Below, piece after piece: positions 432-6,419 of a stretch of 6,552 nucleotides of DNA. The notes under the pieces are model-generated. The model was not told the origin of the DNA. It was given only the letters and a program-made list of their open reading frames with translations, and searched no databases. The translations under genes were made by a program, and so were the position numbers. Source of the DNA: Acinetobacter sp. (lineage in GTDB: Bacteria > Pseudomonadota > Gammaproteobacteria > Pseudomonadales > Moraxellaceae); the NCBI GenBank assembly GCA_008017255.1, contig SSHD01000019.1:1-6552 (forward strand). The letters run 5' to 3'. How positions within the stretch are numbered: position 1 is the first letter of the stretch; each line of letters opens with the position of its first letter.

Positions 432-1908
432 AACGATCTTTCATTTTGCTCAGTAGCAACGCCACCACCGCACAAAACAGTACACTGCCCCAGCCGAAGA
501 TACCTTGTAAACTCATGCTATAACTTTCGTAACCATTTCTGAGCAAGCTAAAAATCGTCATGCTTAAGGTGGTCAATAAAATTAAAGAAGTAATCACCGT
601 TAAAGTAAAATCCCAACCTTTGCCAAGTTGCAAGGTTGAAATACGATTCACGTGGTCTCGAAGCTCGCGTAATGCAGAATGCTTAAACCATGCAATACCA
701 ATAATCGACAACAATGCCCCACCTATAATGCCGATATTGTTAATAAAGTGATCAATAATATCCACCAGTTTAATTGCATTGACACTGGAAAATAACAGCA
801 CTGAAAGTAGTGCACTGCTGCCACCGATAATGCTGACTGCTTTACGCCGTCCCCACTTTAACTTGTCTTGCATGGCGGCAATCGGTACTTCCAAAATACT
901 CACCATAGACGAAATACCCGCCACAAACAACGAAGCGAAAAATAACAAGCCAAATAAATCTGCACCTGCACCTAAACTGGAAATAATTTTAGGGAATGCG
1001 ATAAACGCCAACCCAATGCCGCCACTGACCACATCTTGTACATCTTTATCTGCGGCATGTGCCATAAAACCTAGTGCTGCAAATATGCCAATCCCCGCCA
1101 AAATTTCGGTGGAAGCATTGGCAAAACCGACAATCAACCCCGAGCCAGTTAAATTGGTTTTTGGTTTTAAATAAGATGAATACGTCACCATAATGCCAAA
1201 GCCGACCGACAGCGAAAAGAAAGTATGTCCATAGGCGGCTAACCAGACTTTATAATTCATCATCGCCGACCAGTCTGGGGTAAAAAAGGCATTTAAGCCA
1301 TCGACCGCACCAGGTAAGCGCAAGGATTGAATCACCAAAATACTAAACAAAACAAACAACAGCGGCATAAATATTTTATTGGACAGCTCAACACCTTTTT
1401 TCACCCCACCATATAAAATGATTAAAGTCAGCGCCCAAATGCCCACAATCGGCCAAAATAAATGACTGACAAATTGCAGATCAAATCCACTGGCTTGCGA
1501 GGTTTGTAGGTAAGTCTTGAAGAAGAAACTTTCTGGGTCACTGCCCCACACCTGACCGATGGAAAAATAAATATAACTGCCTGCCCACGTCAGCACGCTG
1601 GCATAATACAGCGCAACCACAAGGCACACGCACACCTGCCACCAACCTAAGGTTTCACCGCCTTTAAATAAAGCTCTATAGGCTTTGGGCGGCGAATTAT
1701 GGCTACGATGTCCAGTGGCATAATCTAAAAACAGCAACGGTAAACCGGCAGTAATCAGCGCCAATAAATACGGAACTAAAAACGCACCGCCACCATTGTC
1801 ATAGGCGACATAGGGAAAGCGCCAAATATTCCCCAAACCCACAGCCGACCCAATGGCTGCAATAATAAAACCAGATCGTGAGGTCCAGTTTTCACGTGTC
1901 GCTGTCAT
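430..1908 (-). CDS. Sodium-dependent transporter, NSS family (MetP-like)
   Basis: This is a 492-residue polytopic inner membrane protein of the neurotransmitter:sodium symporter (NSS, LeuT-fold) family, which imports amino acids with Na+. Residues 7-46 carry the family signature: the sequence WTSRSGFI, the unwound TM1 segment GSAVGLGNIWRFPY (20-33) that binds Na+ and substrate, and NGGGAFLVPYL. The TM6 region SVGFGIMVTYSSY (234-246) and TM8 with SLFVAGISSM (326-335) are also typical, the latter contributing to the second Na+ site. About 11-12 helices are visible, with a last one near 464-487. Length is normal for bacterial NSS proteins. The ATG is preceded by AGGTGA. The downstream MetS-like gene points to a methionine/alanine importer rather than a tryptophan or leucine one. 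The exact substrate is inferred from context, and a symbol such as metP would be provisional. Confidence 0.92.
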   Translation of the reverse strand: MTATRENWTSRSGFIIAAIGSAVGLGNIWRFPYVAYDNGGGAFLVPYLLALITAGLPLLFLDYATGHRSHNSPPKAYRALFKGGETLGWWQVCVCLVVALYYASVLTWAGSYIYFSIGQVWGSDPESFFFKTYLQTSQASGFDLQFVSHLFWPIVGIWALTLIILYGGVKKGVELSNKIFMPLLFVLFSILVIQSLRLPGAVDGLNAFFTPDWSAMMNYKVWLAAYGHTFFSLSVGFGIMVTYSSYLKPKTNLTGSGLIVGFANASTEILAGIGIFAALGFMAHAADKDVQDVVSGGIGLAFIAFPKIISSLGAGADLFGLLFFASLFVAGISSMVSILEVPIAAMQDKLKWGRRKAVSIIGGSSALLSVLLFSSVNAIKLVDIIDHFINNIGIIGGALLSIIGIAWFKHSALRELRDHVNRISTLQLGKGWDFTLTVITSLILLTTLSMTIFSLLRNGYESYSMSLQGIFGWGSVLFCAVVALLLSKMKDR

Positions 1909-3579: not shown

Positions 3580-4287
3580 ATGCAAAAATTAAAACTCTCT
3601 TTGTTAGCAGCCGCATTGGGCTACTGCGGCGTAGCGCAGGCCGATGTCGTAGCGGTCAAAGCCGATGCCAGCTATTGGGCTTATGACGGTCAAGCCAATA
3701 TGGCAGCGCAAACTGGTGTAGACGATTACGACTTAGAGCGTGACGGTTCGACCCAAGTGTCATTGGCCATTGAGCATCCGGTACCACTCATTCCCAATGC
3801 TAAACTTCGTTATGTGAACTTAAATGCACAAACTGAAAATCAAGTGCTGAATCAACCAATCTACGATCTGGATATTGACCAAACCGACTTCATTTTATAT
3901 TACGAAATTTTAGACAATGTTGTCGATGCAGATATTGGTATTGGTGCCAGCAAACTCAGTGGTGATGTTAAAACCCTTGCGCTCGCCAACACCAAAATTG
4001 ATGAAACCGTGCCAGTGATTTATGGTGCCGCAGGAGTAAAACTACCGTTAACGGGTTTAAGTGCCAAAGCGGAATTGTTGTATAGCAACTATGAAGATAC
4101 GCAACTGACCGATGCCAAAGCAGAATTACAATACAATTTTGTCGACAACCTCCTGGTCGATGTCGGCTTAAAAGCAGGCTATCGCATTTTAGATATTCAA
4201 TTCGATGACTACGAAAGCAACAACCTTAAAAATGATTTGAGCTTTGAATTTAAAGGCCCATATATCGGTGTCGATATTCATTTCTAA
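3580..4287 (+). CDS. Outer membrane beta-barrel protein, TIGR04219 type
   Basis: This 235-residue precursor is of the TIGR04219 type. It has a Sec signal peptide (residues 1-21, MQKLKLSLLAAAL core, cleavage after AQA). The rest consists of alternating short amphipathic strands and ends in Phe, the usual outer membrane beta-barrel terminus (IHF). Family-like landmarks are ASYWAYDG (30-37), HPVPLIPNAKLRY (66-78), LYYEILDN (106-113), IYGAAGVKLPLTGLS (147-161) and FKGPYIGVDIHF (224-235). Function of this family is not established. The ATG is chosen because GAGG (3568-3571) lies eight bases upstream. It is divergent from the aldehyde dehydrogenase and followed by its own terminator, so it is monocistronic. 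Surface-exposed loops are acidic. Confidence 0.9.
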   Translation: MQKLKLSLLAAALGYCGVAQADVVAVKADASYWAYDGQANMAAQTGVDDYDLERDGSTQVSLAIEHPVPLIPNAKLRYVNLNAQTENQVLNQPIYDLDIDQTDFILYYEILDNVVDADIGIGASKLSGDVKTLALANTKIDETVPVIYGAAGVKLPLTGLSAKAELLYSNYEDTQLTDAKAELQYNFVDNLLVDVGLKAGYRILDIQFDDYESNNLKNDLSFEFKGPYIGVDIHF

Positions 4288-4303: not shown

Positions 4304-4331
4304 AAGCGCAGTCCTTTGATTGCGCTTTTTT
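4304..4331 (+). terminator. Rho-independent terminator of the outer membrane protein gene
   Basis: The arms AAGCGCAGTC and GATTGCGCTT pair over ten positions with one G-T wobble around the loop CTTT. They continue into a T run ending at 4331. The hairpin starts 17 bases after the stop codon at 4287. Confidence 0.85.
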
Positions 4332-4361: not shown

Positions 4362-4379
4362 TGTAAGCCAAAACTTACA
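4362..4379 (+). promoter_or_regulatory. GacA/UvrY upstream activating site
   Basis: TGTAAG-N6-CTTACA is an exact inverted repeat. It matches the GacA box known upstream of rsmX, rsmY and rsmZ in Pseudomonas. Its centre lies about 66 bases before the predicted start of the small RNA. Finding it next to an RNA with repeated GGA hairpins makes a coincidental match unlikely. Confidence 0.8.
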
Positions 4380-4400: not shown

Positions 4401-4429
4401 TATACAGCTCAGAATGCGAACGCTAATAT
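4401..4429 (+). promoter_or_regulatory. Candidate promoter of the Rsm-type small RNA
   Basis: TATACA (4401-4406) is followed after 17 bases by TAATAT (4424-4429), which puts the start near 4436, just before the first GGA hairpin. The -35 is weak, as expected for an activator-dependent promoter. The start is approximate. Confidence 0.5.
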
Positions 4430-4435
4430 AAGCAC

Positions 4436-4554
4436 ATAGAGACAGGAAGTCTCATTGATAATAATTAAACACAGGATGTCGTCGTCGATAGGATATCAGC
4501 GACAAGAAACTGAATATGAAACAGCCCCGTCAGGATGATGGGGCTGTTTTTTTT
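4436..4554 (+). ncRNA. RsmX/Y/Z-like (CsrB family) CsrA-sequestering small RNA
   Basis: This is a predicted untranslated RNA of about 119 nt that would bind the translational repressor CsrA/RsmA and so release its mRNA targets, as RsmX/Y/Z do in Pseudomonas and CsrB/C in enterics. All four GGA triplets lie at hairpin tips: GAGAC-AGGAA-GTCTC (4439-4453), ACA-GGA-TGT (4471-4479), GATA-GGA-TATC (4487-4497, extended by GTCG/CGAC outside) and TCA-GGA-TGA in the terminator loop (4531-4538). The length is close to that of RsmX and RsmY. A GacA-type site and promoter precede it, and a strong terminator ends it. No coding frame of note crosses it. The family call is by architecture, since these RNAs have poorly conserved sequence. 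The 5' end is uncertain by several bases. Confidence 0.8.
4519..4554 (+). terminator. Terminator hairpin of the small RNA, tipped with GGA
   Basis: Fourteen pairs (AAACAGCCCCGTCA with TGATGGGGCTGTTT, one G-T wobble) close a GGA loop, followed by eight T residues. The upper stem presents a fourth CsrA-binding motif, so the hairpin probably serves both in termination and in protein binding. On the opposite strand only a short T run follows, so termination of the convergent ankyrin transcript would be weaker. Confidence 0.9.
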
Positions 4555-4577
4555 ATTTGGGGTATTTATTGTTCAAT

Positions 4578-4889
4578 TTATAGACTGTTTAAATACGCCA
4601 CCACATCGCTATTCTCTGCCATTTCCGCCAGTTGTAGTGCCGTATATTCACCTTTATAGGCGACATTCGCGCCTCTACTGACCAACAGCTGCACTACGGC
4701 TAAATGGTCATTTTCAGCAGCCGCTTGCAGTGCACTATAGCCTTCATCATCGGTTTGATTTGGGTCTATGCCGTCCAATAACAGTTGTTCAACTTGTGCT
4801 ACATCCCCTTGCGATGCCCAATACACCAGCTCAGGCAAATGCAGTTCTTCATCATCTTGTGGCAGCGGAGTAAAAGCGTTGAGTTTCAT
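4578..4889 (-). CDS. Small ankyrin-repeat protein
   Basis: This encodes 103 residues made almost wholly of ankyrin repeats, helix-turn-helix units that mediate protein-protein contact. A short acidic N-terminus (PQDDEE, 10-15) is followed by repeat 1 (about 19-49, with ASQGDVAQVEQLLLDGIDPN), repeat 2 (about 50-80, with SALQAAAENDHLAVVQLLVSRGAN) and a truncated repeat 3 (83-103, TALQLAEMAENSDVVAYL). There is no signal peptide or membrane helix, so it is probably cytoplasmic. The ATG at 4887-4889 is chosen. A TTG ten codons upstream would also keep frame, but neither start has a convincing ribosome binding site. The gene is convergent with the small RNA, ending 24 bases from its terminator. The partner is unknown. 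Confidence 0.8.
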   Translation of the reverse strand: MKLNAFTPLPQDDEELHLPELVYWASQGDVAQVEQLLLDGIDPNQTDDEGYSALQAAAENDHLAVVQLLVSRGANVAYKGEYTALQLAEMAENSDVVAYLNSL

Positions 4890-4987
4890 GGTAGTTTGAT
4901 CGCACTTAAGTCGGGACAATCGTTAGATTTAAACATAAACGGATGGATGATGCGTATGGTTTATGCTGCGACATCTTGCACACTGGT
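4890..4987. other. Short non-coding gap between ankyrin gene and DUF1648 pseudogene
   Basis: The 98 bases hold no gene, clear promoter or terminator. They contain GTTAGATT (4922-4929), which recurs at 5526-5533 on the far side of the DUF1648 pseudogene next to the attC-like sequence. Confidence 0.4.
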
Positions 4988-6304: not shown

Positions 6305-6419
6305 AGCTGGCGATGACTTACTCTCACATGGCAAACGCCACACTACCATCAGCGCGAAGAGGTTTCACTTCTGAGTTCGGGAAGGGATCAGGTGGTTCAC
6401 GCTCGCTATGTTCGTCAGC
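6305..6419 (-). rRNA. rrf: 5S ribosomal RNA
   Basis: The minus strand reads as a complete 5S rRNA of about 115 nt. It includes the conserved loop region GAACCACCTGATCCCTTCCC and GAACTCAGAAGTGAAAC, the TGGC-GTTT-GCCA helix, and the closing ends GCTGACGA and TCGCCAGC. The sequence resembles Acinetobacter 5S genes. The helix formed by the two ends contains one A-C mismatch. Exact ends are uncertain by one or two bases. It is the last gene of an rRNA operon, directly before a strong terminator. Confidence 0.95.

Follow-up and report, generated by a model that had tools for sequence, protein, structure and literature searches.

Genomic context of a predicted small RNA

The window analyzed here, a stretch of 6,552 bases, is an entire contig (G000:C133) of a source assembly that spans 1.42 Mb and is 65% complete. 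On its forward strand, positions 4436–4554 hold a predicted small RNA (sRNA), with a presumed start and an end marked by a terminator, flanked by the gene for a TIGR04219 outer-membrane protein upstream (3580–4287) and an ankyrin-repeat gene in the opposite orientation downstream (4578–4919). Reading frames across positions 4436–4554 are short, at 27–48 aa, with none of 60 aa or more, and the predicted RNA stands alone in the intergenic region with an intrinsic terminator of its own, as do RNAs of the class proposed below. Given its place between two genes and the similar downstream flank in several relatives, the element might be read as a cis-acting or trailer element of either neighbor. We consider this very improbable because the upstream gene has its own terminator-like hairpin at 4304–4327 (terminator scan), because further copies of the element occur in tandem (some about 0.3–1.4 kb apart) or with different downstream flanks, and because the spacing to a GacA-like box is kept among the copies. 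A 5S rRNA gene was detected at 6305–6419 on the minus strand by an Rfam scan (84.5 bits); a relative's copy, L019, likewise has 5S and 23S rRNA close by, so the locus may adjoin an rRNA operon.

Upstream of the predicted RNA, a GacA box (TGTAAG-CCAAAA-CTTACA), the predicted upstream activating palindrome, is present on the same strand at 4362–4379. It matches exactly, as the initial annotation of this DNA had reported, and is the sole exact GacA box in the source genome at its 65% completeness. The promoter proposed in that annotation fared less uniformly: a -10-like TAATAT on the forward strand is visible at 4424–4429, with TA-rich sequence at the same place in relatives, but a promoter scan detected no -35/-10 pair near it.

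GGA motifs and predicted fold

The four GGAs, at 4445, 4474, 4491, and 4533, are all part of an AGGA. When both strands of the window were scanned for at least four AGGA per 119 nt, only forward-strand stretches starting at 4417–4444 qualified, and no such stretch was found on the minus strand of the window. The RNA from 4436 to 4560 folds at -42.4 kcal/mol compared with a mean of -23.9 for shuffled sequences (z -5.6).

Four hairpins, all on the forward strand, make up the predicted structure. Hairpin 1 (GAGAC-AGGAA-GTCTC, 4439–4453) is supported by family alignments and fold probabilities; hairpin 2, around ACAGGATGT (4470–4480), is weak and is recognized by pairing across the family; hairpin 3, GTCGTCGATA-GGA-TATCAGCGAC (4481–4503), is supported by covariation and loop probability; and hairpin 4 (4518–4554) is the intrinsic terminator, with 15 pairs, a GGA in its loop, and a T run after it. 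The initial annotation had placed every GGA at a hairpin tip, the last one inside the terminator. In the free ensemble, this is borne out for the GGAs at 4445, 4491, and 4533 (hairpin-loop probabilities 1.0, 0.99, and 1.0, respectively), the last of which does lie in the terminator loop, but not for the GGA at 4474, for which the probability in the window copy is 0.00. The stem of hairpin 2 in this copy consists of three pairs with a C-C mismatch outside, and support for the helix comes from the family rather than from the window copy alone. Several GGAs in hairpin loops, a hallmark of the proposed class, are accordingly seen in the window copy (three of four, the fourth being weak) as well as family-wide.

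A covarying family of GGA hairpins

Of 58 genomes searched with Blastn, 21 gave matches, a few of them due to chance; all 21 belong to Acinetobacter. As for loss of the GGA hairpins in relatives, which had been named as evidence against an RNA of this kind, hairpins and GacA-like box were found together in 28 of 30 loci (L011–L040), with one GGA missing in single copies (L016 and L019). Of the 31 sequences that were extracted, 23, from 18 genomes, entered the MAFFT alignment A1 and the covariance model R1, which covers the transcript only; near-duplicates (L015, L032–L035, L039) and non-members (L002, L004) were left out, and L029 and L031, taken as chance matches, were not extracted. A further alignment, A3, comprised 60 copies, each from a different genome that had not contributed to R1; they were picked from the listed stronger matches, so that weaker copies are under-sampled.

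Covariation of the GGA stems, the check on relatives that had been proposed, was assessed in both alignments. In A1, 95.2% of the cells are paired, compared with 38–53% in slid controls, and 16 of the 30 pairs have changed on both sides. The corresponding values for A3 are 96.2% and 27 of 30, in an alignment that is fitted to R1 and hence biased towards the model. The helix of hairpin 1 is paired in 98.2% (A1) and 99.3% (A3) of cells; hairpin 3 has changes on both sides in eight of nine pairs in either alignment, and hairpin 4 in 12 of 13 pairs (A3). The two outer pairs of hairpin 2 are paired in 82.6% (A1) and 78.9% (A3) of cells, with changes on both sides present, and the outermost is broken in 20 of 57 copies (A3); of the four hairpins, RNAalifold alone predicts all except hairpin 2. 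Across the 60 copies, 282 GGAs were counted, of which 69% lie in a hairpin loop with a probability above 0.5; the corresponding fractions are 4.7% for the 666 GGAs of dinucleotide-shuffled sequences and 0.6% for 6352 other triplets. Neither the length nor the sequence of the linker is constant across the family.

A GacA-like box at a near-invariant distance

Model R1 stops short of the promoter, and the box therefore provides an independent test. In all 60 independent copies, the best box within the 150 nt searched upstream lies 68–71 nt upstream of the model start; six of these boxes have no mismatch, 38 have one, 15 have two, and one has three. Thus, 44 of the 60 boxes have at most one mismatch, compared with none of 1,200 upstream regions shuffled at the mononucleotide level (single-base but not dinucleotide content kept), 15 of which had a site with two mismatches. 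Another 27 rows were examined separately; 24 of them have, at 69–71 nt, a box with no more than three mismatches, the misses being L075, L106, and one row masked at the box position. A GacA box upstream at a fixed distance, as in other RNAs of the proposed class, is hence a feature of the family.

Imperfect GacA-like boxes are common in themselves: with up to two mismatches, the source genome has 40 sites compared with 52 in the reversed control, which lends some color to the view that the inverted repeats and the palindrome of this locus came together by chance. Against the existence of a family, its covariation, the fixed box spacing, and the shuffled controls, we regard such a coincidence as extremely unlikely.

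GacA and CsrA in the same genomes

Genes for both protein partners are present in the source genome: csrA on contig C90, with a product that passes the equivalog cut-off, and gacA on C124, for which the best NCBIfam name is UvrY/SirA/GacA at 268 bits compared with a cut-off of 280. The GacA protein is 94–96% identical to its close match in three other genomes (G007, G017, and G104). The expectation that gacA or csrA would be absent wherever the family is absent did not hold. A csrA gene is present in each of the 32 genomes examined, and a close GacA is wanting only in G196 (genus g23; 31% identity). According to the literature available to us, GacS/GacA and CsrA are global regulators in Acinetobacter, and in A. 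baylyi the growth phenotype of gacA loss requires csrA (PMC12455638).

Distribution and copy number

Searched against 175 Acinetobacter genomes at E ≤ 0.01, R1 matches 172, with 1–14 matches each and two or more in 165; this count includes the 18 genomes behind the model, and noise may account for the weakest matches. No match was found in the remaining three of the 175, although both gacA and csrA are present there, so the family is not obligatory. In a wider, family-level sample, R1 matches 98 of 249 genomes, namely 90 of Acinetobacter and eight of genus g30. The eight matches in g30 (35.9–40.7 bits) were rejected as false positives: over the 150 nt upstream of them, the closest approach to a box has 4–5 mismatches, and seven of the eight lack GGA. 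At the sensitivity of R1, the family identified from these sequences is restricted to one genus. A pattern combining the box, the spacing, and the first hairpin matched at least 119 stretches in a named collection; among the matches listed (80 of 119), 79 carry an Acinetobacter title and the remaining one is from a Moraxellaceae MAG. Family matches are 119–142 nt long, mostly with four or five GGAs.

The source genome has three strong copies (E ≤ 2.5e-12), in the window, at C87:188–313, and at C100:4901–5026. The window copy, which belongs to the training set, is matched at 4430–4552 with 123.4 bits; R1 matches of 32.7 bits or less in this genome were taken as noise, the best of them, on C70, being without a box. 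The initial annotation had placed the output of the Gac-Rsm cascade at this locus. The class of RNA that this implies is supported, but with at least three copies in the genome the window locus would be one output of the cascade among several.

Relation to known CsrA-sequestering RNAs

RsmX, RsmY, and RsmZ of Pseudomonas and CsrB and CsrC of enterobacteria are Gac/BarA-activated RNAs that sequester CsrA. The Acinetobacter family resembles them in the upstream box, several GGAs in loops, the terminator, the presence of several copies, and the co-occurrence of csrA and gacA in the genome; by analogy, we infer a shared CsrA-binding function. Unlike these RNAs, the family has a GGA in the terminator loop itself and is confined to a single genus as far as R1 detects it. 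A search with the covariance models of the known families, likewise suggested in the initial annotation, did not place the RNA in any of them. Membership in Rfam RsmY (RF00195) was rejected at 20.6 bits compared with a gathering cut-off of 57 (24.5 and 20.9 bits in two relatives), and the other Rfam models of the class (CsrB, CsrC, RsmX, and RsmZ) gave no match in the window at E ≤ 5. Across the window and ten loci scanned, no Rfam 15 family reached its cut-off over the RNA. The best reading of these comparisons is that the RNA is predicted to work like RsmX/Y/Z, yet belongs to a sequence family of its own.

Another Acinetobacter sRNA with a suggested link to csrA is AbsR28 of A. baumannii, in which evolved clones of A. 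baylyi have acquired mutations and which, according to the authors in the text available, possibly belongs to a csrA/hfq/rnd network (PMC11426457); the AbsR28 model (RF02606) has no match in the window (E ≤ 5) or in the ten loci (E ≤ 1). The same source describes a predicted sRNA between recD and ACIAD0400 of A. baylyi that is mutated in evolved clones and may, in the authors' view, be part of that network (PMC11426457).

Earlier predictions in Acinetobacter

Within the literature searched, so far as its text was available, a CsrA-linked Acinetobacter sRNA is named only by Fakhry et al. 2017 (PMC5568370), who give two sRNAs of A. baylyi ADP1 (25035–24917 and 2690560–2690698) as predicted regulators of RsmA and cite a 2006 prediction of such RNAs in this strain. 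At 119 and 139 nt, the two fit the shorter and longer forms of the family, and the minus-strand prediction at 25 kb may be compared with copies at 23–26 kb, likewise on the minus strand, in G021, G161, and G171, although contig starts need not be comparable. The likeness is one of length and position, and the ADP1 predictions, as given in the available text (PMC5568370), are for one species, with no mention of a family across the genus, of covariation, or of numbers of copies. Both the class and its occurrence in A. baylyi were thus predicted before; a description of a genus-wide family was not met in the literature searched, as far as its text was available, and members may have been identified experimentally before.

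The chromosome of A. baumannii AB5075 is 3.977 Mb long. In this strain, Weiss et al. 2016 (PMC5320573) reported four homologous, expressed Group 3 sRNAs of 128–147 nt (ABUWs005, ABUWs061, ABUWs081, and ABUWs083), with no function stated in the available text. The 5′ ends of ABUWs081 and ABUWs083, on one strand, are 97,824 bp apart in the published table (PMC5320573), compared with 97,827 bp for two copies in G008, when the nearest of three tandem copies is used. Mapping from ABUWs081 and given the above chromosome length, a counterpart of ABUWs005 lies within about 0.5 kb of the expected place in G008; no counterpart of ABUWs061 was found there, all five G008 matches being accounted for. In G007, four of five matches fit the order and strand of Group 3, with intervals of 679, 90, and 342 kb compared with 708, 98, and at least 332 kb, and in G104 three of four fit by position. 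Position, strand, and spacing, as opposed to sequence, suggest that the Group 3 sRNAs, as tabulated in the text available, belong to the same family.

Other GacA-box loci

Besides this family, the searches turned up further RNA candidates behind GacA boxes. One, about 150–160 nt long, carries two or three GGAs and has the same terminator loop, TTTTGGGAGAGACTA, in its several copies. It is represented in the source genome by L004 (about 1296–1448, minus strand, G000:C101; box with one mismatch), and L313, L320, and L328 represent it in three other Acinetobacter genomes, G172, G061, and G026, each of which R1 matches at most once. L004 had no Rfam match at E ≤ 1. A long candidate, L002 (about 1259–1518, minus strand, G000:C80), has six GGAs and resembles L322 of G172 (1501–1760), which has eight; their terminators take the form CCCGAGT...CAGGA...CTCGGG, and R1 scores them at 19.4 and 16.9 bits, respectively. 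Seven GacA-box loci were seen in three other Moraxellaceae genera (L316, L330, and L334 in G204; L318 and L339 in G202; L319 and L327 in G203). Counted over 135 nt from a point 65 nt downstream of the box start, they have 3–9 GGAs; in G206, two loci have only one or two GGAs in the same span. The GGA-rich loci of G202, G203, and G204 are possibly the Rsm RNAs of these genomes. The pattern of a box followed by GGAs, which led to most of these loci, produced 33 matches in ten genomes compared with 11 in the reversed control. It is weak evidence alone, and the case for the long forms and the second RNA was therefore made by inspecting their sequences.

The candidate with two or three GGAs (L004, L313, L320, L328) indicates that GacA-box RNAs need not all be sponges, and the single-stranded, A-rich linker between hairpins 1 and 2 of the family could pair with mRNAs. 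The RNA in the window might, then, be a GacA-regulated base-pairing sRNA whose GGA loops are incidental. We think this unlikely, since the family keeps GGA in the loops while the stems change and the linker varies; a weaker point is that the main text of an A. baumannii Hfq RIL-seq study names a single ABUWs RNA, ABUWs076.

Interpretation

Taken together, family-wide covariation, a box whose spacing is near-invariant (60 of 60 copies), and the presence of gacA and csrA support, as a prediction, the original assignment to the Gac-controlled, CsrA-sequestering sRNAs. With considerable confidence, we interpret positions 4436–4554 as one copy of a multi-copy, covarying family of GGA-hairpin sequences behind a GacA-like box, likely encoding a GacA-activated sRNA that would sequester CsrA; its transcription, GacA dependence, and CsrA binding are those predicted from the sequence. 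Phosphorylated GacA would bind the box at 4362–4379 and activate the promoter about 65 nt downstream of it; the transcript, stopped by the hairpin terminator, would display AGGA in its hairpin loops, where CsrA dimers could bind and be drawn off mRNA leaders, altering the translation of CsrA targets. Multiple copies per genome would sum as dosage.

A broader picture, which we hold to be probable though with distinctly less assurance, is that the Gac-Csr cascade of Acinetobacter acts through short CsrA sponges with four GGAs, an expanding family specific to the genus, with several copies per genome, sometimes in tandem, and with the A. baumannii Group 3 RNAs among them. Other Moraxellaceae would rely on longer RNAs behind GacA boxes, with as many as nine GGAs, and the GacA-box RNA with two or three GGAs would form a separate branch of the regulon.

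CsrA-sequestering RNAs have been proposed in A. baylyi, and in the text available the RNAs joining GacS/GacA to CsrA are assumed but none is named (PMC12455638). The family described here supplies concrete loci in nearly every Acinetobacter species searched, along with a model that finds them, and so renders the link between Gac and CsrA testable. If the match by position holds, it would also provide a likely function for A. baumannii transcripts reported in 2016, and the combination of tandem and dispersed copies makes Acinetobacter a good case for the study of sponge dosage.
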